The position numbers were made by a program, and so were the translations under genes. Shown here one piece after another: positions 7,663-39,684 of a DNA stretch of 64,000 nucleotides (the stretch's first letter is position 1; the number at the start of each line of letters is the position of its first letter). Origin of the DNA: Micromonospora sp. R77 (GTDB lineage: Bacteria; Actinomycetota; Actinomycetes; Mycobacteriales; Micromonosporaceae); contig NZ_JALDST010000001.1 in assembly GCF_022747945.1 (NCBI RefSeq), forward strand, positions 2,418,001 to 2,482,000, read 5' to 3'. Below the pieces are notes generated by a model, which worked only from the letters and a program-made list of their open reading frames with translations, ran no database searches and was not told the DNA's origin.

Positions 7663-8018
7663 CGGGTACGCCGCATCGTGACGGCCACGTCGGCGAAGGT
7701 GTGCGGGATCGGGGCCTCCGGCTTGTGCACGGTGACGGTCGCCGCGCCGACCAGCGGTTCGGCCAGGCAGACCGCGAGCAACCGGTCGGCCAGGGTCTCG
7801 ATCAGGTTGACCGGTTCGCCGGTGACCACCGCGACCAGCTTCTCGGCCAGTTCGCCGTAGTGGACGGTGTCGGTCACCTCGTCGGAGCGGGCGGCCGGGG
7901 CGAGGTCGAGTTCGAGGACGGCGTCGACGACGAACTCCTGCCCCTGGGCGCGCTCGAAGTCGTAGACGCCGTGCCGGCCGTACGCGCGCAGGCCGGTCAG
8001 CTCGATCCGGTCGGTCAT
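7659..8018 (-). CDS. folB: Dihydroneopterin aldolase
   Basis: This 119-residue protein converts 7,8-dihydroneopterin to 6-hydroxymethyl-dihydropterin and glycolaldehyde in the folate pathway. The fold landmarks are the N-terminal IELTGLRAYGRHGVYDFER with the conserved GxHGxxxxE-type segment, the YGELAEKLV region, and VTVHKPEAPIPHTFADVAVT with the catalytic lysine (about residue 100). The size matches single-domain FolB. The start overlaps the folP stop by four bases and the stop overlaps folK, giving a tight folP-folB-folK unit. Confidence 0.95.
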   Translation of the reverse strand: MTDRIELTGLRAYGRHGVYDFERAQGQEFVVDAVLELDLAPAARSDEVTDTVHYGELAEKLVAVVTGEPVNLIETLADRLLAVCLAEPLVGAATVTVHKPEAPIPHTFADVAVTMRRTR

Positions 8019-8884
8019 TCGTCTCCTCTGTTCACGGCTGCCGGGCGGGCGAGGCGGGGGCGGCCGGTGGCGCGCCAGACGGCGAGGGCGTCGGCGGTGC
8101 CCTGGACGTCGTGCACGCGTACCCCCCAGGCGCCGGCGGCGACGGCGAGCACGCTGGTGGCGATGGTGGCCGCCTCGCGCCCGGCGGTCGGCCGGGGGGT
8201 GCCGTCCGGGCCGGCGAGGAGCCGGCCCAGGTAGGACTTGCGGCTCGCCCCGAACAGCAGCGGGAAGCCGAGGTCGAGCAGCTCCGGCAGGCGGGCGCTG
8301 AGTTCCCAGTTGTGCGCGGCGGTCTTGGCGAAGCCCAGCCCCGGGTCGACGATGATCCGGTCGGCGGCGACCCCGGCGGCGAGCGCCTCGTCGACCCGCT
8401 GCCCCAGCTCGGCGCGGACGTCGGCGACCACGTCGGTGTAGCTGGCCAGCTCGCGCATGCCCCGCGAGTGACCGCGCCAGTGCATCAGCACCCAGGGGCA
8501 GCCGGCGTCGCGGACCACCCGGGCCATGTCCGGGTCGGCGAGACCGCCGGAGACGTCGTTGACCACGTCGGCGCCGGCGGCGAGGGCCGCCTCGGCCACC
8601 CGGGCCCGACTGGTGTCGATGCTGACCGGGATGCCGGCCGCGGTCAGCTCCCGGATCACCGGCAGCACCCGGGCCGTCTCGGTCTGCGCGTCGACCCGGT
8701 CCGCGCCGGGTCGGGTGGATTCGCCACCGACGTCGATAAGGTCCGCGCCGGCCGCGCGCAGTCGCACTCCGTGTCCGACGGCGGCGTCGAGATCGGCGTA
8801 TCTCCCGCCGTCGGAGAAGGAGTCGGGCGTGACGTTGAGGACGCCCATCACCACCGGGGCCTGCGCCCGTACCAGATCGGTCAC
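8015..8884 (-). CDS. folP: Dihydropteroate synthase
   Basis: DHPS (about 289 residues) condenses 6-hydroxymethyl-dihydropterin pyrophosphate with p-aminobenzoate. Signature 1 is VLNVTPDSFSDGG (about residues 15-27) and signature 2 is DVGGESTRPGA (about 51-61). The SIDTSRARV, DVVNDVSGG, MHWRG, IIVDPGLGFAK and GASRKSYLG motifs follow in the usual order. I chose the GTG at 8884 because the homologous region starts there. The frame continues open upstream, but that leader is not protein-like. Sulfonamide-type inhibitors act on this family. The divergent side carries the leader of the secretion locus. Confidence 0.93.
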   Translation of the reverse strand: MTDLVRAQAPVVMGVLNVTPDSFSDGGRYADLDAAVGHGVRLRAAGADLIDVGGESTRPGADRVDAQTETARVLPVIRELTAAGIPVSIDTSRARVAEAALAAGADVVNDVSGGLADPDMARVVRDAGCPWVLMHWRGHSRGMRELASYTDVVADVRAELGQRVDEALAAGVAADRIIVDPGLGFAKTAAHNWELSARLPELLDLGFPLLFGASRKSYLGRLLAGPDGTPRPTAGREAATIATSVLAVAAGAWGVRVHDVQGTADALAVWRATGRPRLARPAAVNRGDE

Positions 8885-8962
8885 GACTAGACCGTACCGG
8901 TCGTGGAGAGGGGTTCCCGCAGCCCGGGGCGGGGCCGTCCGCAGCGCCCCTGACATGCGAAT

Positions 8963-9189: not shown

Positions 9190-9239
9190 GACTACTGCAC
9201 CACCGCGGCACCGCCGGCCGCGACATGGGGAGGTTTCCA

Positions 9240-9554
9240 GTGATCGCCATCGAGCTCATGGGGACGGTGACGTCCACCGTCGACCACGCGCTCCACACCC
9301 TGGCGTCGACTCCACTCGCCGAGCCGGCTCCCAAGGGCATCGACACCAACGGCATCGTCACCTTCTTCGCCAGCAAGATCGCGCCGATCCTGCTCGCCGT
9401 GCTCGGCGTCATCTTCATCGGCCGCGCCAGCCGGGGCGAGATCTCCAAGGTGCTCACCAGTTCGGCCATCGCCATCGTCGGCCTGGCCTTCATCGCCGGC
9501 GCCGCCACACTCTTCTTCGTCGGTGACTACCTGATCGACCTGATCTTCCAATAG
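9240..9554 (+). CDS. Small two-helix membrane protein, VirB2/TrbC-like pilin candidate
   Basis: This 104-residue protein has two hydrophobic helices (about residues 41-62, FASKIAPILLAVLGVIFIG, and 74-102) separated by a short basic loop (RASRGEISKV). That is the topology of VirB2/TrbC-type pilin subunits and of small TcpD/TcpF-type proteins. I chose the GTG at 9240 because GGGGAGG lies six bases upstream; an in-frame ATG at 9225 would place that site inside the gene. It heads the cluster leading to the VirB4-like ATPase. Assignment rests on size, topology and context, not on a diagnostic motif. Confidence 0.65.
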   Translation: MIAIELMGTVTSTVDHALHTLASTPLAEPAPKGIDTNGIVTFFASKIAPILLAVLGVIFIGRASRGEISKVLTSSAIAIVGLAFIAGAATLFFVGDYLIDLIFQ

Positions 9555-9566
9555 GACCGGGCGACA

Positions 9567-9929
9567 ATGCGGCTGCGCACCGACGACGACATCTACCGGG
9601 CCCGCCTGGTCTACCTCGGGCCGCCCGGCTACACCCTTCCCGTCCACCTGCCGTACGCCCAGTACGGCCTGTTCATGCTGCTCGTACCCCTCTACATGTT
9701 CATCCACTGGTTGTTCACGTTGCAGGTGGAACTCTTCCCCGCCTGGGAGATCGCCCTCGCCATCGTGACCACCTCGTTCATCTTCCGGCACGTCGACCCG
9801 GACCGGCCGGCGCGGATGGTCATCCGTACCGCGCTGACCGACTGGCGACGCACCCGGGAGCCGGCCGCCGAGCTGCGCGACCCGCGCCTGCGGGCGAGCC
9901 GGATCAGGATCCGGGAGGAACTGGCATGA
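9567..9929 (+). CDS. VirB3/PrgI-like inner membrane protein of the secretion locus
   Basis: This 120-residue protein has a cytoplasmic N-terminus (MRLRTDDDIYRARLVYLG), a hydrophobic hairpin at about residues 34-75 and a basic C-terminal region (PARMVIRTALTDWRRTREP). The layout, size and location immediately before a VirB4-family ATPase match VirB3/PrgI/TcpE-type subunits, which anchor VirB4 at the membrane. There is no enzymatic motif. It starts 12 bases after the preceding small membrane gene and is almost certainly in the same operon. Confidence 0.7.
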   Translation: MRLRTDDDIYRARLVYLGPPGYTLPVHLPYAQYGLFMLLVPLYMFIHWLFTLQVELFPAWEIALAIVTTSFIFRHVDPDRPARMVIRTALTDWRRTREPAAELRDPRLRASRIRIREELA

Positions 9930-9979
9930 CCGGGCGTACACACGGGCAGTCGAACCACGCGGGTGAGGCGGTCGCATGA
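9926..9979 (+). CDS. 17-residue mini-ORF bridging the VirB3-like and VirB4-like genes
   Basis: An ATG at 9926 overlaps the stop of the VirB3-like gene (ATGA). It reads MTGRTHGQSNHAGEAVA and stops at 9977-9979, overlapping the VirB4-like start (again ATGA). It may be a translational-coupling relay, the displaced true N-terminus of VirB4 (given the indels elsewhere), or chance. No conserved feature is visible. Confidence 0.25.
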   Translation: MTGRTHGQSNHAGEAVA

Positions 9980-12900
9980 ATCGCTCGTCCACGCCGGGTT
10001 CCCCGGCAGGCCGTCAGGTCGGCCCGCACGGTAACCGAGCGCGATCGTTCGACTACCCGACGGATGAGGAGCTGGACGAGGTCGAACTCGACCCCGCCCT
10101 GCTGAGCGCCCCTGGGCACGGCCGCGTCGGTGTCTTCCAGCCGCCCCGGCCGACCGCGCAGCGCGCCGCGTCGGCCGGCGAGCAGCCCGTGCTCCCCGAC
10201 GGTGGTGACATCGACTCGCCCTTCCTCGACCTCTTCGGCGGGGCGCAGCCCGGTGCCCGCCGCCCGGCGTCACTGCCGGCGGGACGGCCCGCGGCGCTGC
10301 CGGCCATCGAGCCGGTGGTGGCACCGCCGCGACGCGGAGTGGGCCGCGAGGCACTGCCGATCCCGCACCAGCACGCGGCGCCCACCGGCCCGGCCGGCGC
10401 ACCCCCGTCGAGCGCCGACCCGCCCGGACCCCGGACGGCCCGCAGCAGCCGCCGGCACCCCGGCACGCCACCGAGCAGGACCGGCCGGCGGTCCGGCAGG
10501 CACCGGAACCGGACCGGTCGGCGACGCGGCACGCACCGGAATCGGACCGGCCTGCGGTGCGACACGCACCGGAACCGGACCGGCCGGTGGCCCGGTCCCG
10601 CGCGCACACCGACCTCGACGCACCGGCGGGCCGGCCCCTGGAGGTCGACGTGGACCGGCTGGCGGGCCGGTCCCGCGAGGCCGAACTCGACCCACCCGGC
10701 CGACCGCACCGGCTGCCGGACCTTCCGCCGCCGCCCGCTCTCCAGCGTCCGGGCGCGGCGGCCGACCGGGTCGGTGGCGTCGAACCGCGCGCACCGGCCG
10801 GCGGCCCGGACCCGGGTGCCGCACCAGGCCGGGGACCGGCTCCCCGCGCTCCGACCGACCGTCGACCCCGACCTGACCGAACCGGAGCCGGAGCTCCCGG
10901 CCGGGCCGCCGGCTCTGGACGGTGCGCCGGCCACCGGAGTCGGCCACGACATGGCCGCGCCGCCCGCCCGCGAGCTCACCGGGCCGCCGGCCCGCGACGT
11001 CGCCGCTCCGCCGGGCCGCGAGGTGGCCCCACCTCGGCAGCGGTCGGCCGCCGAGCGCCGCGACCGACCCGTCAAGCCGACCCGGGTACGCCCCCCGAAG
11101 ATCAAGTTCGGTGACCGCGATCCCGCCATCGACCTGGCCGTCACCGAGATCGCGGGCCACCTCACCTTCACCCCCAACACGGTCACCGCCTGGTACTGGC
11201 TGCCCGAGGTGCGGTGGGCGTTCCGGCCCGACGCGGAGCGGGAGGCGCTGCTCTCTGCCATCTCCGAGCAGTACGCCGGCCTCGCCGGCTTCCGACTGCA
11301 CCTGCGCCGCACCACCCGGCCGTTCCCCGCCGACGAGTGGGCCCGCACCATCGACGCGCACACCGCGTCGCCGCTGCCCGACGTCCCCGGCACCCAGGGC
11401 TGGGCCGACCACCTGGTCGCCGCCCAGCGGCACCTGATGGCGGTCAACCACGCCGAGGGGCAGACCTACCTCGGTGTCACCTTCGCCCGGCGCTCGCTCG
11501 GCGACTCGCTCACCGAGCGGCTGCTGCGCACCTTCGGCCGGGGCACCGCCGACGCCGAACGACGCAAGCTCGGCCGCACCGTCGAACAGTTCGACGAGGT
11601 GCTCGGCGCGTTCGGCATGCGTGGCCGTCGGGTCACCTCGCAGGAACTGGAGTGGCTGCTCTACCGCTCGGTAGCGCTCTGCATGGCACCGCCCAGCTCG
11701 CTCTCCCCGGTGACGAACGGCCACTGGGAGCGGGGTGACCTGCTCGCCCTCACCGAGCAGGTCGAGCGCTACCGCACCCCGTACGGCTCCACCGTCAAGC
11801 TGGTCAACCGGATGACCGGCGAGGAACGGCACGTCGCCGTGCTGGCCGTCGGCCGGATGGAGCCGTTGGAGATCCCCGAGCGGCACGAGCCGTGGCTGCA
11901 CTTCCACGAGCGGCTGCCGTGGCCGATGGAGATCTCCACCCGGGTCGACATCCTCGGCCCGAACGACTCCTTCCGTAACCTCGAACACCGGCTGCGGATG
12001 ATCCGCTCCCAGCAGCTCGACTACGCCGAGCACGGCATCGACGCGCCGCCCGAGCTGGAACGGCTCGCCAAGCGGGCGCTGGTGATCGGCGACGAGATGA
12101 CCACCGGCCTGCCGGTGGACTCGGCGCGCGCCCACGGCTGGCACCGGATCGCCGTCGGCGGCCGGACCCGCGAGGAGTGCCTGGAACGGGCCCGACGGCT
12201 CATCCAGCTCTACTCACGCGAGCTGCGGATCTCGCTGCAGCACCCGAAGAACCAGGACTGGCTGGCCCGCGAGTTCATCCCCGGCGAGCCGATCGCCAAC
12301 ACCGGGTACGTCCGCCGGATGCCGGTCAACCTGCTCGCCGCCGCACTGCCGCAGGCCGCCTCCACCGTCGGCGACCGGCGCGGCGACCTGATCGGGCGGA
12401 CCGCCGGCACCTGCCGCCGGCCGGTCTTCCTGGACCTGCACTTCCCGATGGAGGTGCGGGAACGCTCCGGCCTGGCGGTCTTCGTCGCCGAGCCGGGCGG
12501 TGGCAAGTCGACCCTGCTCGGCGCGCTCGGCTACCTCGCCGCCCGGCGCGGGGTCCAGGTCACCCTGCTGGACCCGTCCGGCCCGCTGGCCCGGCTCTGC
12601 GCCATGCCGGAGCTGCGGCCGTACGCGCGGGTGCTCAACCTGACCGGTTCCGAGCAGGGCACCCTGGCGCCGTACTCGCTGATCCCGACACCGCTGCGCA
12701 GCGAGTTCGGAGTGGGCGCGGCCGGCGACCGGGAGTTCGAGATCGCCGTCTCCAACGCCCGCGCCGAGCGCCGGATGCTGGTGCAGGACATCTGCATGAT
12801 GCTGGTGCCGCCGCAGGTCGCGCGCGAGTCGAGCACCGCCACCCTGTTCCGGCACGCCGTACGCCAGGTGCCGGCGGAGGAGACCTCCACCCTGGACGAC

Positions 12901-13662
12901 GTGGTCGCCTGCCTGCAAGGGCTGGACGACGACGCCGGCCGGGAACTGGCCAACCTGCTGCTGGACACCGCCGAGATGCCGCTGGCGATGCTCTTCTTCG
13001 GCCGGCCGCCTGAAGGGCTGCTCGGCGCCGACGCGGCGCTCACCGTGATCACCATGGCCGGGCTGCGGCTGCCCGACCTCAAGATCGAGCGGGAGTACTG
13101 GTCCGCCGAGGAGGCGCTCGCCCTGCCGATGCTGCACACCGCGCACCGCCTCGCGGTCCGGCGCTGCTACGGCGGGTCGATGGCGTCCCGCAAGCTGGTC
13201 GGCCTGGACGAGGCGCACTTCATGGAGGGCTGGCGGTCCGGCCGGTCGTTCCTGGTCCGGCTCGCCCGCGACTCCCGCAAGTGGAACCTAGCCGCGCTGG
13301 TCGCCTCGCAGAACCCGAAGGACATCCTCGGCCTCGACGTGCAGAACCTGGTCTCCACCGTCTTCGTCGGCCGGATCGCCGAGGACTCCGAGATCGCCTC
13401 CGAGGCGCTCCGGCTGCTCCGGGTCCCGGTCAACGACGGCTACGAGGCGACCCTCGCCTCGCTCTCCCAGGCGGACGCCGGCTCGGCCGCCCGCCTCGGC
13501 TTCCGCGAGTTCGTCATGCGGGACGTCGACGGCCGGGTGCAGAAGGTCCGGGTCGACGTGTCGTACGTCGACGGACTGCTGGAACACCTCGACACCACTC
13601 CCGCCGCGGTCGCCCAGGCCGCTGCGCTGCTGCCGACCATCCTGCCTGACCTGGAGGCGTGA
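9976..13662 (+). CDS. VirB4/TraC-family secretion ATPase with long disordered N-terminal extension
   Basis: This 1228-residue protein is a VirB4-type ATPase that would power substrate movement or pilus assembly in a type IV secretion apparatus. Residues about 1-370 are Pro/Arg/Ala-rich linker. A VirB4 N-terminal-like region (about 375-800) follows. Walker A is EPGGGKSTLL (about 840), Walker B is VGLDEAHFMEGW (about 1075), and the SQNPKDI and RIAEDSEIA motifs (about 1111 onward) are typical of VirB4 C-terminal domains. Between about 10430 and 10815 the open frame is Arg-rich while another frame gives natural Glu/Asp-containing repeats. This implies two compensating indels inside the linker; the catalytic part is intact. 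The ATG at 9976 is coupled to the preceding mini-ORF. Confidence 0.9.
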   Translation: MNRSSTPGSPAGRQVGPHGNRARSFDYPTDEELDEVELDPALLSAPGHGRVGVFQPPRPTAQRAASAGEQPVLPDGGDIDSPFLDLFGGAQPGARRPASLPAGRPAALPAIEPVVAPPRRGVGREALPIPHQHAAPTGPAGAPPSSADPPGPRTARSSRRHPGTPPSRTGRRSGRHRNRTGRRRGTHRNRTGLRCDTHRNRTGRWPGPARTPTSTHRRAGPWRSTWTGWRAGPARPNSTHPADRTGCRTFRRRPLSSVRARRPTGSVASNRAHRPAARTRVPHQAGDRLPALRPTVDPDLTEPEPELPAGPPALDGAPATGVGHDMAAPPARELTGPPARDVAAPPGREVAPPRQRSAAERRDRPVKPTRVRPPKIKFGDRDPAIDLAVTEIAGHLTFTPNTVTAWYWLPEVRWAFRPDAEREALLSAISEQYAGLAGFRLHLRRTTRPFPADEWARTIDAHTASPLPDVPGTQGWADHLVAAQRHLMAVNHAEGQTYLGVTFARRSLGDSLTERLLRTFGRGTADAERRKLGRTVEQFDEVLGAFGMRGRRVTSQELEWLLYRSVALCMAPPSSLSPVTNGHWERGDLLALTEQVERYRTPYGSTVKLVNRMTGEERHVAVLAVGRMEPLEIPERHEPWLHFHERLPWPMEISTRVDILGPNDSFRNLEHRLRMIRSQQLDYAEHGIDAPPELERLAKRALVIGDEMTTGLPVDSARAHGWHRIAVGGRTREECLERARRLIQLYSRELRISLQHPKNQDWLAREFIPGEPIANTGYVRRMPVNLLAAALPQAASTVGDRRGDLIGRTAGTCRRPVFLDLHFPMEVRERSGLAVFVAEPGGGKSTLLGALGYLAARRGVQVTLLDPSGPLARLCAMPELRPYARVLNLTGSEQGTLAPYSLIPTPLRSEFGVGAAGDREFEIAVSNARAERRMLVQDICMMLVPPQVARESSTATLFRHAVRQVPAEETSTLDDVVACLQGLDDDAGRELANLLLDTAEMPLAMLFFGRPPEGLLGADAALTVITMAGLRLPDLKIEREYWSAEEALALPMLHTAHRLAVRRCYGGSMASRKLVGLDEAHFMEGWRSGRSFLVRLARDSRKWNLAALVASQNPKDILGLDVQNLVSTVFVGRIAEDSEIASEALRLLRVPVNDGYEATLASLSQADAGSAARLGFREFVMRDVDGRVQKVRVDVSYVDGLLEHLDTTPAAVAQAAALLPTILPDLEA
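10461..10595 (+). repeat. 33-bp tandem repeats coding for an 11-residue unit in the VirB4 linker
   Basis: Read in the frame starting at 10482, the DNA encodes consecutive units RPAVRQAPEPD, RSATRHAPESD and RPAVRHAPEPD (10482-10580), with partial units on both sides. The current virB4-like open frame reads the same DNA as Arg/Thr/Asn-rich repeats. The repeats support the view that the natural frame here differs from the open one. Confidence 0.7.
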
Positions 13663-13663
13663 C

Positions 13664-15607
13664 ATGGCGAGGGCCCGGGCACGGATCACGGCGCTCCTCC
13701 TCGCGCTCGGCGTACTCGCCGTGGCCACCGTCGCCTGGCCGGTGCTCGGGACGACACCGGCGTACGGCGCGACACCGGTCGCCCAGGCCCGGGCCGAGCT
13801 GTGCAGCACCAAGGAGTGGCAGGCCGACTTCCGCGCCTGCGTCGCCAAGCTCCAGGAGGTCAGCCAGGACCAGGTCGAGTGCCGCAACGCCCCGGTCCCC
13901 GACGCGCCGGACTCCGGCCTGGCGGGCTGGTTCGCCGCCCGCCCGGACTCCGCCAAGCTGCCCGGCCCGAAGGGGCTCTACAGCGACTACGGCTACGCCG
14001 GCTACAGCTACACCACGTACGACGTGGACGGCGGGTGCGCGTCGTCGGTGCTGCACCCGGACTACCGCTTCACCACGATGGTGGCGAACGGGGAGTTCAT
14101 GTTCGCCGACGCGGTGATCGGCGCCTCCAACGCCCTGCGCGAGCGCGCCTGGGATCCCCGCTCGATGTGGCGCTGGGCGGACCCGCTGGTGGAGCAGGCC
14201 ACCAAGGCCGTCTACCAGAAGGTGTTCAGCGTCTTCGGCATCATCACGCTCTGCGTGGTCGGCCTCTATCTGCTCTGGCGCTCGCGCCAGTCGGACATGA
14301 GCAACGCGATGACCACGGCCGGCTGGGCGCTGCTGGTGATGGTGGCGGTCACCGCCCTGGCCGCATGGCCGGTCAAGTCGGCGAACATCGCCGACAACAC
14401 CCTGGTCACCACCCTCGGCGTCGTCCACGACGCCGTCGGCCCGGCGACCAGGGACCTCCCACCCGGCCAGTGCGACGACCCCACTCACCCTGAGGCGTGC
14501 AAGGACCACCGCCCCCCGGCCGTACGGGCCAGTGACACGGCGACCGAGACGATGCTCTACCGGAACTGGCTGCGCGGCGTCCTCGGCTCGGCCGACAGCG
14601 AGACCGCGAAGAAGTACGGCCCGGCGCTCTACGACGCCAAGTCGCTCTCGTGGGAAGAACTCGAGAAGCTCCGCAAGAACCCGGCTACCCGCGAAGCGAC
14701 CATCAAGGCCAAGCAGCAGCAGTGGGCCCGGGTCGCGGAGCAGATCAAGTCGGAGGACCCGGAGGCGTACCAGTATCTCCAGGGCGTCCGGGACATGGAC
14801 CGGATCGGTGCGGGCTTCATCGCGGTGCTGGCCTCGCTGCTCTTCGCGATGTTCGACCTGACCGCCTCGGTGCTGGTGCTGCTCGGCTTCCTGATCTTCC
14901 GGTGGGCGGTGATCGCCGCACCGATCCTCGGCACGGTGGGTCTGATGCGTCCGGCGAGCGCCGGTCTGCGTCGACTGGCGAACGCCGTGGTCGCGGCCGT
15001 CTTCAACATCGCCATCTTCGGCACCGGCGCGGCCGTCTACCTCTTCGCGGTCGACCTGATCATGAACACACCGACCCTGCCGGGCTGGCTGCAGGTGGTG
15101 CTGGTCTGGCTCTGCGGCGTGGTGGGCTGGCTGCTGCTGCGCCCGTACCGGCGGATCACCCAGCTCGGGGGCAAGGACGGCAGCGAGGCGGTCAGCTCGG
15201 CCGGATCGTGGCACCGCCGCTTCTTCCGGGACATGCGGGTGGCGGCCCGGCTCGACGTGGTCGAGCCCGGCGGCACCGCCGAACCGGCGATCGGCCGGCG
15301 ACGCGGGCCGTTGCTGGAACAGACGAACCTGCGGCCGGAGGCGCGGCACGAGGACCCGTCGCACTCCGCCACCACCGCGACGGAACGGCAGCGGCCGGAC
15401 GGTCAGGAGCGGGCGGACGAGGCTCCGCCGCCGGAGCGGCAGTCGGCCGGCGGCCGGACCGCGCCGCGTCCCCGGCGTCACCAGCCGGCCAGCTGGACCG
15501 AACCGGACGTACCGGAGGAGGCGCCTTCCTTCGCCGTCTACCGTCCCGACTCGGCCGAGCGCGCACCGGCGAACCCGACCCCCCGGGTGCGCTCCGAGGC
15601 CCGGTGA
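13664..15607 (+). CDS. Polytopic membrane protein, VirB6/TrbL-like channel component
   Basis: This 647-residue protein has an N-terminal signal peptide (about residues 1-37, cleavage near YGATP) and an extracytoplasmic Cys-containing domain of about 150 residues. Helices lie at about 188-206 and 218-236, with a soluble loop to about 380. A cluster of helices (about 383-413, 418-432, 443-465, 477-493) precedes a charged, Pro-rich cytoplasmic tail. VirB6/TrbL/TcpH-type proteins have such multi-helix cores downstream of VirB4. It starts one base after the VirB4-like stop. No sequence motif proves function; topology and context support the call. Confidence 0.75.
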   Translation: MARARARITALLLALGVLAVATVAWPVLGTTPAYGATPVAQARAELCSTKEWQADFRACVAKLQEVSQDQVECRNAPVPDAPDSGLAGWFAARPDSAKLPGPKGLYSDYGYAGYSYTTYDVDGGCASSVLHPDYRFTTMVANGEFMFADAVIGASNALRERAWDPRSMWRWADPLVEQATKAVYQKVFSVFGIITLCVVGLYLLWRSRQSDMSNAMTTAGWALLVMVAVTALAAWPVKSANIADNTLVTTLGVVHDAVGPATRDLPPGQCDDPTHPEACKDHRPPAVRASDTATETMLYRNWLRGVLGSADSETAKKYGPALYDAKSLSWEELEKLRKNPATREATIKAKQQQWARVAEQIKSEDPEAYQYLQGVRDMDRIGAGFIAVLASLLFAMFDLTASVLVLLGFLIFRWAVIAAPILGTVGLMRPASAGLRRLANAVVAAVFNIAIFGTGAAVYLFAVDLIMNTPTLPGWLQVVLVWLCGVVGWLLLRPYRRITQLGGKDGSEAVSSAGSWHRRFFRDMRVAARLDVVEPGGTAEPAIGRRRGPLLEQTNLRPEARHEDPSHSATTATERQRPDGQERADEAPPPERQSAGGRTAPRPRRHQPASWTEPDVPEEAPSFAVYRPDSAERAPANPTPRVRSEAR

Positions 15608-16161
15608 GTGCGATGCGACGGGCGCTGGAGTTCCTCTTCACCCGGGTCCTGCGGTCCCGGCTCGGCATCGCGGTGGTGATCGCCGTCCTGGTCTTCGGGG
15701 TGATCGGCGCCGCCCGACTGGTCGCCGGTCCGACCGACCCGACGAGCGGCCTCAGCAACCGGCCGGCCGAGCCGATCAGCACGGTCGACCCGGAGGCCGG
15801 TGACGACGGTGTGCTGGCGTCGGCGGCCCCGGCCTCGCCGAAGACCCGCCCGGGCGAGCTGACGCCCGAGCAGACCGCCGACCGCTTCACCACCGCCTGG
15901 CTGGGCGGCCCGGGCAGCAGCGGTGACGAGTGGCAGGCCCGGCTGCGTCCGCTCTCCACGTCCGCCCTCACCGAGAAGCTGACCGGCGCGGACCCGGAGA
16001 GCGTTCCGGCGCGGCGGGTGACCGGTGCGGTCACCCTCCGACCCCGGACCGACGCCTTCGTCGAGGCGCTGATCCCCCTCGACAACGGTCGGCTCCGACT
16101 CGAACTGGTGGCCCCCGACGGCCGGTGGCTCGTGGACGCGGTGGACTGGGAGCGGCAATGA
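15604..16161 (+). CDS. Single-pass protein with VirB8/TcpC-like NTF2 fold
   Basis: This protein of about 185 residues has one transmembrane helix (about residues 18-38, LGIAVVIAVLVFGVIGAARLV), a Pro/Ala-rich stalk and a C-terminal domain of about 95 residues (TADRFTTAWLGGPG ... WLVDAVDWERQ). That is the pattern of NTF2-like domains in VirB8 and TcpC, which scaffold type IV secretion channels. The GTG at 15604 overlaps the previous stop (GTGA). An ATG at 15613 is an alternative. The stop overlaps the next start by four bases. Confidence 0.7.
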   Translation: MSAMRRALEFLFTRVLRSRLGIAVVIAVLVFGVIGAARLVAGPTDPTSGLSNRPAEPISTVDPEAGDDGVLASAAPASPKTRPGELTPEQTADRFTTAWLGGPGSSGDEWQARLRPLSTSALTEKLTGADPESVPARRVTGAVTLRPRTDAFVEALIPLDNGRLRLELVAPDGRWLVDAVDWERQ

Positions 16162-17342
16162 CTGACCTGCCCGGGGAGACCGGTTCCCCGCCGCTGCGCC
16201 GGAAGCTGCGGCTGGGCGTGCTGGCCGGCGCGCTGACCGCGGTTCTCTCCCTGCTCTGCTGCGTCGGTGGTGCGGCGGCGTTCTTCCTGACCGAGCTGGG
16301 CGGCGAGGAGAAGGACGGGACGAGCAACGCGGGGCTCGCCTGCACGGTGGGCCAGCAGGTCAGCATCACCGGCGCGATGCCGCGGTTCGCCGAGTACGGC
16401 GAGGGCCAGCTCCGCAACGCCGCGGTCATCATCAAGGTCGGCCAGGACATGAAGGTGCCGGCCCGGGGCTGGGTGATCGCCCTGGCCACCGCGATGCAGG
16501 AGTCCGCCCTGCGGAACCTCGCCAACACCACGGTACGGGCGTCCCTGTCGCTGCCGCACGAGGGAGTCGGCTCGGATCACGACTCCCTCGGCCTGTTCCA
16601 GCAGCGGCCCGGCTGGGGCAGCGTGCAGGAGCGGATGACGCCCTCCTACACGGCCCGCAAGTTCTACGAGAAAATGATCAAGGTGCCCAACTGGGAGCAC
16701 CGGCCGCTGACCGTGGTGGCGCAACGGGTCCAGGTCAGCGCCTTCCCCGACGCCTACGGCAAGCACGAGGAACTGGCCAGCCGGATCGTGGACGCGCTGG
16801 CCGGCGGTGCCGCACGGACCGTCCAGATCGCCGGCAAGGCGGTCTGCGACGCCGCCGCCGGCGCCCGGATCGCGGCGTCGGGCTGGACGGCACCGATCCC
16901 CGGGCGGGCCGGCTCCGGTTTCCGGACGGCCGAGCGGCCGAAGCACAACGGCGTCGACATCGCCGCCGAGAAGCGGACCGAGATCCACGCGGCGGCGACC
17001 GGACGGGTGCTGGTGGCCCGCTGCGACCCGGACCACTCGGGTCGACGGGACTGCGACCGGGACGGCTGGCCGGGCAAGGGCGGCTGCGGCTGGTTCGTCG
17101 ACATCCTGCACGCCGGCGGCTACATCACCCGCTACTGCCACATGATCGAGCGGCCGCACGTGGTGCCGGGTCAGCTGGTGGCGGCCGGTGACGTGATCGG
17201 TCTCTCCGGCACCAGCGGCAACTCGTCCGGTCCGCACCTGCACTTCGAGGTGCACGTCGACGGTGACCGGTCCAGCCGGGGCGCCATCAACCCGGTGCCC
17301 TTCATGCGGGAGCACGGCGCGCCGCTGGGAGGCACCCCGTGA
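16158..17342 (+). CDS. Bifunctional cell-wall hydrolase: lysozyme-like domain plus M23 peptidase (VirB1-like)
   Basis: This 394-residue protein has a membrane anchor at about residues 18-45. A lysozyme/transglycosylase-like domain follows (VIALATAMQESALRNL with the catalytic Glu near residue 115, then SLGLFQQRPGWGS). The C-terminal M23/LytM peptidase domain carries HNGVDIAA (H and D metal ligands, about 263) and GPHLHFEVHV (HxH, about 359). It would open peptidoglycan locally for the secretion apparatus, as VirB1/TcpG-type hydrolases do. An insert with three Cys (RCDPDH..DCDRDG..GGCGWF) lies in the M23 domain. The ATG at 16158 overlaps the upstream stop. Confidence 0.88.
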   Translation: MTDLPGETGSPPLRRKLRLGVLAGALTAVLSLLCCVGGAAAFFLTELGGEEKDGTSNAGLACTVGQQVSITGAMPRFAEYGEGQLRNAAVIIKVGQDMKVPARGWVIALATAMQESALRNLANTTVRASLSLPHEGVGSDHDSLGLFQQRPGWGSVQERMTPSYTARKFYEKMIKVPNWEHRPLTVVAQRVQVSAFPDAYGKHEELASRIVDALAGGAARTVQIAGKAVCDAAAGARIAASGWTAPIPGRAGSGFRTAERPKHNGVDIAAEKRTEIHAAATGRVLVARCDPDHSGRRDCDRDGWPGKGGCGWFVDILHAGGYITRYCHMIERPHVVPGQLVAAGDVIGLSGTSGNSSGPHLHFEVHVDGDRSSRGAINPVPFMREHGAPLGGTP

Positions 17343-17355
17343 GGCCCGCCGACGC

Positions 17356-17955
17356 ATGACCGGCCCGCTGCCCGACCCGTTCGCGGACCAGCCTGACTGG
17401 GCCCCGCTACCGCCCCGACCGATCGAGATCGTCCCCGCCACGGCCCGGGTCGACCTGCGCGGTCGCCGGGTGCTGGTCGGGCTGCCCGGGCTGGGCTGGC
17501 GCGGCGACCTGCGCGCCGACGAGCGCGTGGTCCAGGGCAGTCGGACGTACGTGCCGGTCATCCCGGAACACGAGTGGTACCGCGCCGAGTCGGAGCAGGT
17601 CGAGGTCTTCGCGCCGCTGGTGCCGGTCGAACGGGTCTGGGTGGAGACGCTGGGCGACCGCCGACCCACCACCCGGCCCTCGGAGTCGGGGATCCGGCTG
17701 GTCTCGCTCGACGCGCCGAGCCGCCCGGCACCGACCCCGGTGTTCGAGGCGGACGCGGTGACCGGCCGGCGGGTCGTGCACGTCGCGGAATCGGTCGAAC
17801 ACCGCGACCTGCGCGCGGTCACCGAGACCTACTCGGGCGCCGACGGCGACATCTGTGTGCGGGTCACCCCCGAACTGGAGTGGTACCGCTGGGCCTGGCG
17901 CGGCCAGGCACCCACCACCCTGGAGGTCCCGGTCCACCTGCTCTGGATCGAATAA
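17356..17955 (+). CDS. Uncharacterised soluble protein at the end of the secretion operon
   Basis: This 199-residue protein has no transmembrane segment, starting MTGPLPDPFADQPDWAPLP. It is beta-rich, and two segments look alike: HEWYRAESEQVEVFAPLVPVE (about 75) and LEWYRWAWRG (about 175). Each ends a stretch starting with a Val/Tyr-rich strand, suggesting an internal duplication. The ATG at 17356 lies 13 bases after the hydrolase gene, so it is operonic. No family was recognised. It could be a cytoplasmic accessory or chaperone of the secretion system. Confidence 0.6.
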   Translation: MTGPLPDPFADQPDWAPLPPRPIEIVPATARVDLRGRRVLVGLPGLGWRGDLRADERVVQGSRTYVPVIPEHEWYRAESEQVEVFAPLVPVERVWVETLGDRRPTTRPSESGIRLVSLDAPSRPAPTPVFEADAVTGRRVVHVAESVEHRDLRAVTETYSGADGDICVRVTPELEWYRWAWRGQAPTTLEVPVHLLWIE

Positions 17956-17960
17956 CTGCG

Positions 17961-18524
17961 TTAGGCAACCTTGCGACCAGCGCAAACCCGCCAGCCGTCC
18001 TTGTCGACCACTTCGAACTGCCAGTCCTCACGCCGGCTGCTGCGCGTCTGCCCGTTCGATGCGCTGGCGATGGTCAAAGTCGTGGTCACGGACTCACCAC
18101 TCTGACTCTTCGTCCTAGTCAGCGCTCCCCAGCTGACCTTCACTACAACGTTAAAGTTCACCTCTCGCTGCTGCAGTTCGGTTCGCAGATCGCGTACAGC
18201 ACTGAGGTCAGCGTTGCCTTCGCAGGTGTACTGGCTGGCCTTGGTGTCGTTGCGGTCCACCAGGAACGCGCGTAGGTAGTTGTCCACCACCACGTCCGGA
18301 GCGCTGCGGTCCGGGGCGGTTGCGCGGTCGTACAGGACGTAGCCGGCGACCGCACCGCCCGCGCAGAGCAGCGCGAGCGCCCCCGCCACCACGGTGAGGA
18401 CGGTGCGCAACCGGCGCGGCGGACGCGCGGGTGCCGGAGCGGGCGCGGGGGGCGCCAACTGCTCGGACGGCGGGGTCCGCTGCGCCGGTACGCGGGAGAC
18501 CTGGGAACCGGCGGGGGGCTGCAC
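17961..18524 (-). CDS. Membrane-anchored protein with extracytoplasmic NTF2-like domain
   Basis: This protein of about 187 residues has a Pro-rich cytoplasmic leader, one transmembrane helix (about residues 42-64, TVLTVVAGALALLCAGGAVAG) and an extracytoplasmic domain of about 110 residues (VVVDNYLRAFLVDRND ... WQFEVVDKDGWRVCAGRKVA) with an NTF2/SnoaL-like pattern. I chose the GTG at 18524 because AGGAGG sits eight bases upstream; the GTG at 18533 abuts that site. It converges on the last secretion gene with a five-base gap. It differs from its neighbours in slightly lower G+C. It may be a periplasmic-side accessory, but function is unknown. Confidence 0.65.
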   Translation of the reverse strand: MQPPAGSQVSRVPAQRTPPSEQLAPPAPAPAPARPPRRLRTVLTVVAGALALLCAGGAVAGYVLYDRATAPDRSAPDVVVDNYLRAFLVDRNDTKASQYTCEGNADLSAVRDLRTELQQREVNFNVVVKVSWGALTRTKSQSGESVTTTLTIASASNGQTRSSRREDWQFEVVDKDGWRVCAGRKVA

Positions 18525-18706
18525 TGATTCCACCTCCTGAGGCTATCGGCTGCGCGCCGCGTACCCAATGCCCCAGATCCACCGATCGTGGCGAACCGCC
18601 GGTAAAGACCGGCGCAGCGCCGACCGACATCCGGCGGGCGGACCGCCGCCTGGGATACCGTCACTGGTCGGAGGAGATGTCGGCCTCGGGAAGAGAGGTG
18701 GACGCG

Positions 18707-21216
18707 GTGGCCAGTCCGAAGGCGCGAGCCGGCCGGGCCGCCGCCCTGCACCGGCGGGCCGCGGCCACGGCGGTCGCCGCGGCCGGGATCCTCGACGAGA
18801 TCCGGCCGGCCCCCGCCGACCATCACCGGCAGTACGAGCTGGCGGAGCGGCTCCGGGCGGCGGCGGCGCTGGCCGCGCCGGGCTGGTCCGGCGAGCCGCT
18901 GGAGCGCCTGGCCCAGGACGTCCCGCCCGGTGAGGGTCCACCGCCGTTGGTCCGGGTGGGCACCGCCGCGCCGCTGGACGACGCCCGGTTCCCGGCCCTG
19001 GTGCCGCTGGTCGGCAGCGGTCACCTGAGCGTGGACGCCGATGCCACCGAGCCCCGGGTGGCGGGGCTGCTCCGGGCGGTCCTGCTGCGGATGCTGGCCG
19101 CCACGCCGGCCGGCGCGCTGCTGGTGCGGGCGGTGGACGCCGTCGGGGACACCTTCGGGGCGTTCGCGCCGCTGGCCGACGCGGGGCTGCTGCCCCGCCC
19201 GCGGTGGACGTGGCCGGGCTGCGCGCGGTCCTCGACGAGGCCGAGCAGTGGGTCGGCGCCGGCTCCGCACGGCAGCGCGGGCACGACCGTACGCTGCTGG
19301 TGATGGTGGCCGCGCTGCCCGCCGGCACCGGCGCCGCCGAGATGGGGCGGCTGGAAGCCCTGGCCGACCAGGGCCCCCGGGCCGGCCTGCACCTGGTGGT
19401 GGCCGGCTGGCCGGCCACCGGGCGGGACCCGCTGCCCCGGACCACCCCGATCGCGGTACGCAACGCGTACGCGCTGGTGGGGGATCCGCCGGAGGCGGCG
19501 TTCAGCAGTCCCGGCGGGGAGGCGCCCGGCGGTCTGAACTCCCCCGTCTTCGTGGACGACGACCCGCCGGCGGAACTGGTGACCGGGGTGTGCCGGCGGC
19601 TGGCCCGGCTGATCGAGGACGGCTCCCGGCTGGCCCTGACCGATCTGCTGCCCGCCGGGGAGCTGTGGGAGTCGACCTCCGCCGAGGGCCTGGCCACCAC
19701 GGTCGGCGACGCCGCCGGCCGGCCGGTGACCCTCGGCTTCACCGAGTTGACCCCGCACTGGCTGGTCAGTGGCCGGTCCGGGGTGGGACGGTCGGCGTTC
19801 CTCACCAACGTGCTGTTCGGCCTGACCGCCCGGTACGGCCCCGACGAACTGGTCCTCTATCTGGTCGACCTCGCCGACGGCGAGTCCTTCGTGGAGTTCC
19901 TGCAGACCGAGCGGGACCGCTCGTGGGTGCCGCAGGTCCGGGCCGCCGGGATGGCCGCCGACCGGGAGTACGTGGTCGACGTGCTCGGCGAGCTGGAGGC
20001 GGAGCTGCGCCGCCGGGAGGAGGCGGGGCGGCGGGCCGGCGGGCAGCGCTTCGGCGAGCTGCGCCAGCACCAGCAGCTGCCCCGGATCGTCTGCGTGATC
20101 GACAACTTCCCCCTGCTGGTCCGCGAGCGGGACCGGCTGGCCGGTGACTTCCTGACTCGCCTGGACTCGCTCGCCCGCACCGCCCGGGCGTACGGGATCC
20201 ACCTGGTGCTGGCCGGCGAGGGTGACCTCGGCCTCGGCGGTCCCCGGGATCCGCTGCTCGGCCAGTTCCCGGTGCGGGTGGCGTTGCCCGGCGGGTCGGC
20301 GGTGCTGGAGCCGACGAACGACGCGGCGGCCGGCCTGCCGGTCGGCAGCGCGGTGGTGAACACGGCCGGTGGGCTGGGTGGGCCGCGGGGAGCGACCCGG
20401 GGCCACGAGCGGATGATCCGGTTCCCGGACCCGCACGACGATCCCGACACGGTGGCGAAGTTGCGGCACCGGCTCTGGTCGGCCCGGCCGGAGGAGGCCG
20501 CCGCGCCGCTGGTCTTCGCCGGCTACGCCCGGCCGGTGCTGGCGAACGATCCCCGCTACCGGGCGGCGCTGGCGGGACGGGCGCACGGGCCGGCCGTGCT
20601 ACTCGGCCGGCTGGTGGACGTGCGTCGCTCGACGGCGTCGGTACCGCTCGGGCCGGCCGCCGGCCGGAACCTGGCCGTGCTGGGCCGTGACACGGAGGCG
20701 TGCCGGTTGCTGGTGACCGCGGCCCGGAGCCTCGCCGCGCACCGTCCCGCGACGCGGTTCGTGCTGGCACCGCTGGTGGAGGGCTCGACGGCGGCGGCCG
20801 GCGAGCTGGCCGCCGCGCTGGACGGGCACCGGGTGGAGACGGTGGACGTCGCCGGCCTGCGGGCGGCGATGGAGAGCGACGAGCCCGGCTACCTGGTGGT
20901 GTTCGGGTTGGACGTGCCGGGCGAGGCGGAGCTGCCGGCCGAGCTGCTGCGGTCGCTGCTGCTGGCGGGCCCGCCGGCGGGGGTGCACCTGCTGGGCTGG
21001 TGGCGGACGCCGACCCCGCTGGCCGCGCTGCTCGGTGCGGAGGGCGAGGTGGGCAAGCTGACCGCGGTGGTGGTGACGGACCTGCCGGGCAACCGGTTGG
21101 AGCAACTCTTCGACCGGCCGGTGCTGTGGCGTCCACGCCCGGGCCGGGCCGTGCTCTGGGACGGCCCGGACGAGCAGGGCACGGTTCTGGTGCCGTTCGG
21201 CCAGGAAGCACCATGA
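18707..21216 (+). pseudogene. FtsK/SpoIIIE/EccC-like ATPase, frameshifted in this sequence
   Basis: Two overlapping frames together encode about 836 residues. The N-terminal part (from the GTG at 18707, with AGGTGG five bases upstream) ends naturally at FAPLADAGLLP. The product resumes one frame over as AVDVAGLRAVLDEAEQWV. One C missing from the CCCC run at 19193-19196 explains this. The central P-loop is GRSGVGRSAFL and a Walker-B-like RIVCVIDNFP follows, as in FtsK-type modules. The C-terminal module keeps the overall pattern but lacks an evident P-loop. Such proteins move DNA or protein substrates. Here it could serve as the otherwise missing coupling ATPase of the adjacent secretion locus. 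An upstream ATG at 18677 is a weaker start. Confidence 0.75.
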
Positions 21217-21914
21217 GCGAGAGCGGCACGGCGGTGCCCGCGCCCCGACCGGGTCGCCCGGCGACCGAATCCGACCCGGTCGGCGCGGCCTGGGCGGACT
21301 ATGTCGCGGCGGCCCGCCAGCTCGACGGGGTACGTCGGGCCGCGGCGACCGCCGCCGGTGAGCAGGCCCGTTCGGTGCAGGCCGCCCGGGACGAGCTGAC
21401 GGAGGTCCGGGCCCGGCTGGCGCCGCAGAGTTCCCGGCTGCGGGAGCTGGGCGTGGCCCCGATCTCGCTGCTGCCGACACCGCCGGAGCTGACCGAGGCG
21501 GCGCGGTCGATGGCGGCCGGGCCGGCCGCGGTGCTGACGTCGTTGCAGGCCGCCCGGAAGTGGTCCGAGGCGGCGGACGACACGCTGGCCGCGCGGGGCC
21601 TGCCGCGGATCGCCCGCTGGCCGTCGCAGCCCCGCAACCTCCTCGTGTACGGGCCGCTGGCGCTGGTGGTCCCGCTGCTGCAACTGGTGCTCTTCCTGGC
21701 CACCGGCACCGGACCGGTGAGCGTCCTGGCGCTGGTGGTCGGGTTGCCGATGCCGGCGGTCGCCTTCATGACGGGTTGGCTGGCGGTGGGTCGGCTGTTC
21801 CGGCCCCGCCCGACCGACCGGGTGGACCGGACGCCACGGTTGGGTGCGCTGGTCTGCCTGGTCCCGGCGGTGGTGGCCGCCGCCGGGATCGTGCTGGCGA
21901 TGCTGGCCGGCTGA
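21213..21914 (+). CDS. Coiled-coil membrane protein partnered with the FtsK-like ATPase
   Basis: This 233-residue protein has a cytoplasmic helical region (about residues 20-120; EQARSVQAARDELTEVRARL is coiled-coil-like), then hydrophobic segments at about 148-166, 172-190 and 212-232. The ATG at 21213 overlaps the ATPase stop (ATGA), so the two are translationally coupled and probably act together at the membrane. No family name was recognised. A strong terminator follows 22 bases after the stop. Confidence 0.65.
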   Translation: MSESGTAVPAPRPGRPATESDPVGAAWADYVAAARQLDGVRRAAATAAGEQARSVQAARDELTEVRARLAPQSSRLRELGVAPISLLPTPPELTEAARSMAAGPAAVLTSLQAARKWSEAADDTLAARGLPRIARWPSQPRNLLVYGPLALVVPLLQLVLFLATGTGPVSVLALVVGLPMPAVAFMTGWLAVGRLFRPRPTDRVDRTPRLGALVCLVPAVVAAAGIVLAMLAG

Positions 21915-21980: not shown

Positions 21981-22685
21981 TCAGCGGGGGATGATCAGCG
22001 CCATCGCTTCGGCGCGGGACTTGGCGTCGTCCTTGAGGGTGCCGCGGACGGCCGAGGTGATGGTCTTGGCACCGGACTTCTGGATGCCGCGCATCGCCAT
22101 GCACATGTGCTCGCACTCGAGCACCACGACGACGCCGCGCGGCGCGAGCCGCTCCATCAGCAGGTCGGCGATCTGCGAGGTGAGCCGCTCCTGCACCTGG
22201 GGGCGGCGGGCGAAGACCTCGACGAGCCGGGCCAGCTTGGACAGGCCGGTGATCCGCCCGTCCGGGCCGGGGATGTAGCCGATGTGCGCGCTGCCCCGGA
22301 AGGGCAGCAGGTGGTGCTCGCAGAGGCTCATCACGTCGATGTCCCGGACCAGCACCAGTTCCTCGTGGTTGGCCTCGAAGGTGGTGCTGAGCACCTGCGC
22401 CGGGTCGACCCGCAGGCCGGCGAAGAGTTCGGCGTACGCGCGGGCGACCCGGGCCGGGGTCTGCTGGAGGCCGTCGCGGTCCGGGTCCTCTCCGACCGCG
22501 ATGAGGATCTCCCGGACGGCCTTCTCGATCCGGCCGAGGTCGATGGCCTCCTCGACCGGTCGGCCGGTGAGCTTGCCGCTGATCAGTCGGGCGGCGACGT
22601 AGTCGAGGGCTTCGTCACCGTCGGGTTCGGTGGACGAAGCGGCCAGCCCCGAGTGCTCGGGGCTGGCCGCGTGGTCGGTGTTCAG
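21981..22685 (-). CDS. folE: GTP cyclohydrolase I, apparently with a CTG start
   Basis: FolE converts GTP to 7,8-dihydroneopterin triphosphate, the first step of folate synthesis. The conserved core is present: [21 protein letters not shown], then [24 protein letters not shown] with the zinc ligands Cys and His, [21 protein letters not shown], and [14 protein letters not shown] with the third zinc ligand. The homologous frame extends well upstream of the first GTG (22394) and contains no ATG, GTG or TTG back to the end of ftsH. A CTG at 22685 overlaps the ftsH stop as CTGA and gives [13 protein letters not shown], a plausible 234-residue protein, with GGACGG six bases upstream. The protein family is certain; the start is inferred. 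Confidence 0.9.
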
Positions 22686-38700: not shown

Positions 38701-39684
38701 CGCGACCTGTTCGGCTCGCGGCTGGAGCTGCACCTCGGTGACCCGGCCGACTCGGCGCTGGTGAAGCGGGTCGTCGCGGCGAACGTGCCGGAGAAGAAGC
38801 CCGGCCGGGGCATCACCGCCGAAGGGCTGCACTTCCTGGCCGCCCTGCCCCGGCTCGCCGGCCTCGGCGACGGCACGGGCGACCTGGTGAAGGCGGTCGC
38901 CGGGGCGTGGGCCGGTCCGGTGGCACCCCGGGTCCGGCTGCTCCCGCCGGTGCTGCCGTACGCCGAACTGGACCTGGCCGCGACCACCGGGCTGGCCTTC
39001 CCGGTCGGGGTGGCCGAGGCGGACCTGCGCCCGGTGGTGCTGGACTTCGCCACCGAGCCGCACTTCCTGGTCTTCGGCGACGCCGAGTGCGGCAAGTCGT
39101 CGTTCCTGCGCGCGCTGGCCACCTCGATCGTCGGCCGGTTCACCCCGGAGCAGGCCCGGGTGATCCTGGTGGACTACCGGCGCAGCCTGATGGGGACGAT
39201 CGAGACGCCGCACCTGATCGGGTACGGCACCGCCGCGCCGTACACCACCGAGCTGATCGAGTCGGCGGCCGGCTACCTGCAGAACCGGATCCCCGGCCCG
39301 GACGTCACCCCCGCCCAGCTGCGCAGCCGCTCCTGGTGGTCCGGTCCGGAGCTGTTCGTGCTGGTGGACGACTACGACCTGGTGGCCGGCGGGCCGACGA
39401 ACCCGCTGCGGGCCCTGGAGGAGCACCTGCCGCACGCCCGGGACGTGGGACTGCACCTGGTGCTGGCCCGCCGCTCGGGCGGCGCCGGCCGGACCCAGTT
39501 CGAGCCGATCGTGCAGCGGCTGCGGGAACTCTCCACCGCCGGGCTGGTGATGTCCGGCAGCCCGGAGGAGGGTGCCCTGGTCGGTCAGGTGCGCCCGGGT
39601 CCGCTGCCCGCCGGTCGGGGCCGGCTGGTCACCCGCCGGGAGGGCGTACGGCTGGTGCAGTTGGCGCATCTGCCGCCAGGTTGA
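35720..39684 (+). pseudogene. eccC: EccC-type type VII secretion ATPase, one frameshift
   Basis: The GTG at 35720, six bases after AGGAGG, opens a protein of about 1321 residues. It has two N-terminal helices (about residues 40-80), a region ending at GQAEVGTP, and three FtsK/SpoIIIE ATPase domains. Their P-loops are GATGSGKSE (about 37167), GAPQSGKSG (about 38224) and GDAECGKSS (about 39076). The frame switches at the CCCC run 36876-36879, where one more C restores DALAVADAEAVARRLAPLRL. EccC recognises WXG100-type substrates and drives their export. The first domain keeps LLICDEFSELL as Walker B. No esx gene is adjacent. Confidence 0.88.

Follow-up and report, generated by a model that had tools for sequence, protein, structure and literature searches.

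A chromosomal type IV secretion-like block of Micromonosporaceae and its kinship with transfer modules of linear plasmids

Conjugation machines are usually taken as mobile, and the question raised here is what one of them does when a whole family of antibiotic-producing actinomycetes retains it as a chromosomal locus. The locus lies in Micromonospora sp. R77, in a stretch of 64,000 nucleotides (contig NZ_JALDST010000001.1, positions 2,418,001 to 2,482,000 of the forward strand), which is termed the window and from whose first letter all coordinates are counted. It consists of seven plus-strand genes (9225-17955) that form one tight block with intergenic gaps of at most 46 bases. An earlier note on the window had described this region as resembling a type IV secretion system (T4SS); the gene order and positions were re-derived, and the observation of the seven-gene block is confirmed. 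Our reading, to which we give a probability of roughly 0.62, is that this chromosomal block is related to the transfer module found on linear plasmids of actinobacteria and likely forms an envelope channel that is powered by VirB4 and has neither a relaxase nor a coupling protein of its own. The block and its upstream flank are composed as follows.

8015-8956, upstream flank: folP (PF00809)
9225-9554, plus strand: g1, small protein of 109 aa (called from its open reading frame and from the frame of GC at third codon positions); two hydrophobic stretches; pilin/TcpD-like from position only
9567-9929, plus strand: g2, small protein of 120 aa adjoining VirB4; VirB3/TcpE-like by position
9976-13662, plus strand: VirB4/TcpF-type ATPase, 1228 aa (Pfam AAA_10, 2.2e-23)
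10207-10236, plus strand: decapeptide DIDSPFLDLF, within the low-complexity arm at the N terminus of VirB4
13664-15607, plus strand: g4, VirB6/TrbL-like protein of 647 aa; several hydrophobic stretches
15613-16161, plus strand: g5, 182 aa, N-terminal helix and NTF2-like VirB8/TcpC domain
16158-17342, plus strand: g6, 394 aa, with a part resembling lysozyme (by motif) and an M23 endopeptidase (Peptidase_M23, 1.4e-23)
17356-17955, plus strand: g7, 199 aa, two-part beta protein with two SH3-like halves; no membrane stretch seen

Hydrophobic stretches and transmembrane segments were judged by eye throughout. The host genome comprises 7.14 Mb, the closest named loci are those of Micromonospora, and the GC content of the block is similar to that of the remaining window.

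Is the block a visitor or a resident of the chromosome? Named genomes were scanned, which yielded 245 loci; the best 80 were kept, all from Micromonosporaceae by name and mostly from Micromonospora. The genes from VirB4 to g7, together with the minus-strand gene that comes after g7, are colinear in all 80. The g1 gene was found in 66 of the 80 loci, those at contig ends counted in, and folB lies upstream in every one of these 66, whereas L017 and L075, two of the 67 loci in which over 6 kb of sequence precedes VirB4, are devoid of g1, g2 and folB. In these two the VirB4 decapeptide is missing as well despite the upstream sequence being present, which reflects either rearrangement or misassembly. 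The median identity to the window is 95% both for the VirB4 core (88.5-97.1, 80 loci) and for g2 (66 loci). In the family surveys, where up to 16 VirB4 and up to 14 FtsK candidates were scored per genome, VirB4 was present in 75 of the 81 sampled Micromonosporaceae genomes (70 of 74 good ones) and in 41 of 44 genera; it was absent from each of the three genomes sampled in genus g78 (G100, G131 and G151), from G115 and from the incomplete genomes G082 and G140. A class-wide draw recovered VirB4 in 4 of 60 genomes, namely the host genome itself and three others at 32-33% identity. When distances were compared with those of ftsH in 52 of the 80 loci, the Spearman correlation was 0.54 for VirB4, 0.68 for g4, 0.66 for g6 and 0.67 for g7, each value lying above all 200 permutations. 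The variable site and patchy distribution of a mobile element were therefore not observed, and the VirB-type block is a family-wide chromosomal fixture; the earlier note had read it as chromosomally fixed. No open-licence PMC paper on this Micromonosporaceae locus was found among the titles and abstract openings listed; one VirB4-like gene amid unknown genes was named in M. lupini (PMC4182475).

Where, then, might such a fixture come from? The tblastn search with the VirB4 core gave 146 plasmid records, and the first eight of them, which come from Nonomuraea, Streptomyces and Pseudonocardia, show 35-39% identity. Seven regions of linear plasmids of Streptomyces, Nonomuraea, Pseudonocardia and Rhodococcus were read, and all seven share with the window the order of small protein, g2, VirB4, VirB6-like protein, VirB8-like protein and wall hydrolase. 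The window g2, g4, g5, g6 and g7 match 7, 7, 3, 7 and 3 of these regions, respectively (E 1e-3, small database), and g1 matches none of the seven. The g2 relatives are 23-30% identical, on 7 plasmids, and those of g7 27-30%, on three. The three g7 relatives (L106 24512-25147, L114 23714-24346, L116 27684-28328) lie elsewhere than the transfer genes on their plasmids and are each followed by a gene annotated as a partition protein. There are also differences: the plasmid VirB4 proteins are without the decapeptide, the hydrolase is listed as NlpC/P60 or C40 in six of the seven and is of M23 type only in L115, and an FtsK/SpoIIIE gene is annotated near the VirB-like genes in five, with a T4SS DNA-transfer gene in the sixth and neither listed in L108. 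In the VirB4 tree Micromonosporaceae form one clade (100/100) that stands beside the seven linear-plasmid sequences (98/97) with short inner branches, and four other chromosomal sequences fall outside both groups. As judged from sequence, the block has its nearest kin in the transfer modules that linear plasmids of actinobacteria carry. Since long branches were flagged in this tree and its Phytohabitans row was left out, we infer, rather than read from the tree, that the block was derived from a plasmid. Distant VirB4 proteins (L109-L112) occur in three of three sampled genomes of another family and on the chromosome of Nonomuraea gerenzanensis, whose locus (L112) carries TcpC, TcpE, TrbL and NlpC/P60 profiles and is perhaps a second fixed T4SS.

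This kinship also supports the view that the block is still conjugative and moves chromosomal or plasmid DNA by means of a type IV coupling protein (T4CP) and a relaxation protein whose genes lie elsewhere. Two further T4SS loci of the same genome, L100 (at 3.45 Mb) and L101 (at 6.05 Mb), indeed encode T4CP-like and Replic_Relax proteins. However, both have components of their own, i.e., T4SS_pilin, TrbL or PrgI and a VirB4 of another type with other profiles, and, as would not be expected of a mobile element, nearly all sampled genera of the family have the block; we regard ongoing conjugation as unlikely. Within the locus, Pfam and NCBIfam scans of the genes of 9225-21914 gave no match to relaxase, VirD4-type or integrase profiles, in agreement with the earlier note, and the remaining genome was not given a relaxase-specific search. 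Nor does the gene table of the seven linear-plasmid stretches, itself incomplete, list a relaxase. The near-universal presence in the family, taken together with the lack of a recognised nicking enzyme or coupling motor, suggests that a plasmid machine has likely been adopted for good.

What has been retained of this machine? It shows traits of the T4SSs of the mating-pair formation class FA (MPF-FA): a VirB4 with intact Walker motifs, a VirB8/TcpC NTF2-like protein and a wall hydrolase. The best NCBIfam match of VirB4 is TcpF (3.1e-20, far under the family cut-off), and the Walker A lysine as well as the Walker B aspartate and glutamate are invariant in 81 of 81 aligned rows. Fold comparison supports the VirB8/TcpC-type NTF2-like domain of g5, and in g6 the putative lysozyme glutamate and the His/Asp/His residues of the M23 part show no exchange in any of 80 rows, a single short locus being excluded. 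The other names given in the earlier note fared less evenly. The TrbL profile (PF04610) was found in three of ten aligned g4 rows (best 2.2e-9), from which the label "VirB6-like" is drawn; the window protein itself has no direct match. The labels "pilin-like" for g1 and "VirB3-like" for g2 fit the positions of these genes but have no direct profile support: g1 matched no Pfam or NCBIfam profile, the window g2 protein likewise had no direct match and gave nothing in a profile comparison (hhalign) with TcpE, and TcpE (PF12648) was matched by one of eight aligned g2 rows at E 0.008. The AlphaFold2 model of g7 has a mean predicted local distance difference test score (pLDDT) of 82.7, and no confident match to it was found in the PDB.

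A machine of this composition could also work inwards. ComB of Helicobacter is a DNA-uptake system that operates without a coupling protein, and the block resembles it in that VirB4, intact, is the sole ATPase of the block and that no relaxase or coupling protein was recognised in the locus. The wall hydrolase and the VirB6-like protein, however, fit export equally well, and we consider uptake quite improbable.

Could the coupling motor lie next to the block? The earlier note proposed that an FtsK/EccC-like protein and its partner, encoded downstream, serve as the coupling motor of the VirB channel. The genes in question are the following.

17961-18524, minus strand: Rv0361_Cterm-family protein (NCBIfam NF051431, 38.2 bits, cut-off 37)
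about 18677-21216, plus strand: FtsK/EccC-like gene, frame-broken (FtsK_SpoIIIE, 4.9e-13; EccCa, 8.4e-15)
21213-21914, plus strand: partner gene of the FtsK-like gene, 233 aa, a coiled-coil membrane protein according to the earlier note
21981-22394, downstream flank: folE (PF01227)

The locus thus lies between folP and folE as that note had stated, with ftsH beyond folE, and the FtsK pair is present downstream of the block. Among the best 80 loci, 71 have room for the FtsK-like gene, and 68 of these carry it downstream of the block (L022, L028 and L039 are without it there), which favours the proposal. Among the 75 VirB4-bearing family genomes an FtsK row at E 1e-70 was found within 8 kb downstream in 33, at 8-40 kb in 9 and elsewhere on the contig of VirB4 in 9; 24 genomes had none on that contig, and absences rest on this threshold and partly on short contigs. 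However, the Rv0361_Cterm-family gene sits between the VirB block and the pair and does so on the minus strand in all 80 named loci; the two are therefore separate units and not one operon, and the FtsK-like gene belongs to its own transcription unit. In the window this gene is moreover broken by a frame change near 19190-19230, while in 73 of 74 relatives having both pieces it is one open frame, L067 being the exception. A sequencing error and a real frame change at 18677-21216 are indistinguishable from these data.

The motifs of the FtsK-like protein point in the same direction. In the window its Walker A reads GRSGVGRS, with R in place of K, and its Walker B VIDNF, with N in place of E. 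The alignment holds 73 rows, i.e., 71 orthologues (window included) and two paralogues, and excludes ten of the 80 loci, six without an FtsK match and four with a short one. The position of the Walker A lysine is occupied by R in 60 rows, V in 1 and K in 12, and the Walker B aspartate is followed by N in 56, S in 2, G in 2 and E in 13. All rows with R, and the one with V (in which E is kept), come from Micromonospora, Verrucosispora, Salinispora or a Micromonosporaceae assembly, so that the lysine is missing from every one of the 61 Micromonospora/Salinispora sequences and the glutamate from 60 of them. Both residues are kept in all ten aligned orthologues from outside this group (Asanoa, Plantactinospora, Phytohabitans, Actinoplanes and Symbioplanes), a point in favour of a motor, and in the two paralogues. 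The FtsK-like protein of the window is likely a pseudo-ATPase. The longer piece of the broken gene scored 54.5 bits against the EccC equivalog, whose cut-off is 509.

The pair and the VirB genes are also separable. Three FtsK paralogues are found elsewhere in the same genome with no VirB matches around them, and the one at 5.93 Mb is followed by a relative of the partner gene (28.6%, E 3.7e-5). The paralogue at 0.86 Mb (L098 5637-7922) also matches in separate open frames. Conversely, in the 20 kb stretches read, the VirB block occurs without the FtsK pair in L139, L141, L145 and L143, the last of which is also without g7; L140 has kept a remnant of the partner only, L138 a truncated FtsK, and in L144 the pair lies on the opposite side of folB. 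FtsK-like genes that are short at the C terminus are found where this VirB4 is absent (L142, L146, genus g78). The pair hence occurs independently of the VirB-like genes, which by the terms of the earlier note itself counts against coupling between them. The linear plasmids offer no support either: all six of their FtsK or transfer proteins have an intact Walker A, five of the six belong to a single family (29-53% identity) to which none of the FtsK-domain loci in this genome is clearly orthologous, and none of the six matches the window protein. The correlation of FtsK with ftsH distances, 0.76, is one that any vertical gene would show. Because of the minus-strand separator, the frame break, the Walker losses and the relatives that have VirB without FtsK or FtsK without VirB, the neighbour is not a credible motor; that it powers the channel is highly improbable, and in Micromonospora it is likely neither the VirB motor nor a part of the VirB unit. 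The description of the locus as a hybrid not clearly described was likewise too strong, since VirB genes with FtsK-type coupling have precedents: MPF-FA systems have FtsK-like coupling proteins (TcpA; PMC12857230), relaxase-less linear plasmids of mycobacteria carry EccC with VirB4/VirB8 (PMC12803027), and five of the seven linear plasmids read here have an annotated FtsK/SpoIIIE gene near the VirB-like genes.

If the neighbour does not drive the channel, how would cargo reach it? The favoured reading, that of a VirB4-powered envelope channel, would have the lysozyme/M23 protein g6 open the peptidoglycan, g1, g2, the VirB6-like g4 and the VirB8-like g5 build the membrane channel, and VirB4 energise it. 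Because no coupling protein is recognised, cargo is predicted to be delivered by g7, which is likely cytosolic, and/or by a partner that docks on the decapeptide of the VirB4 arm. This arm, rich in P, A and R, precedes the VirB4 core with a median length of 302 residues (67 sequences). DIDSPFLDLF is identical in 65 of the 68 loci uncut by a contig end, with L017, L067 and L075 as exceptions; it was not seen in 12 further contig-cut loci, which are excluded from the 68. A variant, DVDSPFLGL[FV], occurs in L138, L140 and L141; neither form was found in L139, L143, L144 and L145 or in six-frame translations of 11 loci from plasmids or other families. At the DNA level, with at most two mismatches allowed, its pattern has one site per genome in 13 of 13 same-genus genomes, 12 of them without mismatch and the single mismatched site being at a contig end, and no site in 8 other genomes; the sites differ synonymously among genomes. 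The arm with its decapeptide appears to be a newly noticed feature of the chromosomal VirB4, one not found in its plasmid relatives.

As for the cargo, the export of protein, to the envelope or to hyphae in contact, is ranked ahead of DNA transfer and of uptake, tentatively and with the odds somewhat short of even. Bolder, and rather doubtful, is the idea that VirB4 itself took over cargo coupling, with the decapeptide as dock and g7 as adaptor replacing a lost FtsK-type coupling protein; the FtsK-like neighbour would then be a decaying bystander, now a pseudo-ATPase, and the block a housekeeping T4SS of the whole family. The chromosomal retention, the ATPase core of about 95% identity and the lack of a recognised relaxase and coupling protein together point to a function of the envelope or of cell contact that is yet to be discovered in Micromonospora and Salinispora. 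The plasmid kin, the family-wide chromosomal form and the natural losses make up an evolutionary series for how a T4SS may be tamed, and the invariant decapeptide provides a direct bait for VirB4 partners.

How does the block compare with systems already described? A developmental role has a precedent in cmdABCDEF (SCO4126-4131) of Streptomyces, another chromosomal operon with a VirB4-like ATPase in a filamentous actinomycete, whose mutants are defective in sporulation and chromosome segregation, while the transfer of an SLP2-derived plasmid is unchanged (PMC2782261). SLP2 is the linear plasmid named in that paper, and the likeness described above rests on other linear plasmids. The cmd operon was found in presumed Streptomyces genomes; the label Streptomyces for G037, G058 and G076, as well as the label Streptosporangiaceae for G035, G056 and G074, is presumptive, and CmdB was recognised by operon shape and by Walker A Lys90, the Lys404 of the paper not being at 404 in L158. 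CmdB has 471 aa and other partner genes, and shares with the window VirB4 the broad AAA_10 profile. It gave no significant BLASTP match to the window VirB4 but does match the VirB4 of L101 (26%, 2e-16), and therefore the likeness to cmd is one of analogy and not of orthology. Profile A1, at E 1e-3, found nothing in two of the three presumed Streptomyces genomes and another gene in the third. That the block is a complex for sporulation and chromosome segregation, as cmd would suggest by analogy, seems to us doubtful.

The MPF-FA systems, of the Tcp/Tn916 type and with the Tcp proteins of pCW3, share with the block the TcpF match of VirB4 and the VirB8-type fold of g5, and the Nonomuraea chromosomal relative carries TcpC, TcpE and TrbL profiles; the block differs from them in being fixed in the chromosome and in that neither a TcpA-type coupling protein nor a relaxase was recognised. 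The mycobacterial T7/4SS plasmids, relaxase-less where they are linear, place VirB4 and VirB8/TcpC beside an FtsK-domain EccC (PMC12803027), but their EccC is part of a full ESX locus, whereas the EccC-like gene of the window is degenerate. An ESX/type VII locus does lie in the window about 15 kb from the T4SS block, with an EccC of three FtsK domains (37075-39684) and a subtilase that is mycosin-like by position (39759-41102). The chromosomal T4SSs of Patescibacteria resemble the block by description, being of monoderm type, mostly relaxase-less and thought to be co-opted, and differ from it in the class to which they are assigned, MPF-FATA (PMC12102498). Finally, T4SSs that operate without a T4CP are known, namely Ptl and the VirB system of Brucella (PMC12102498).

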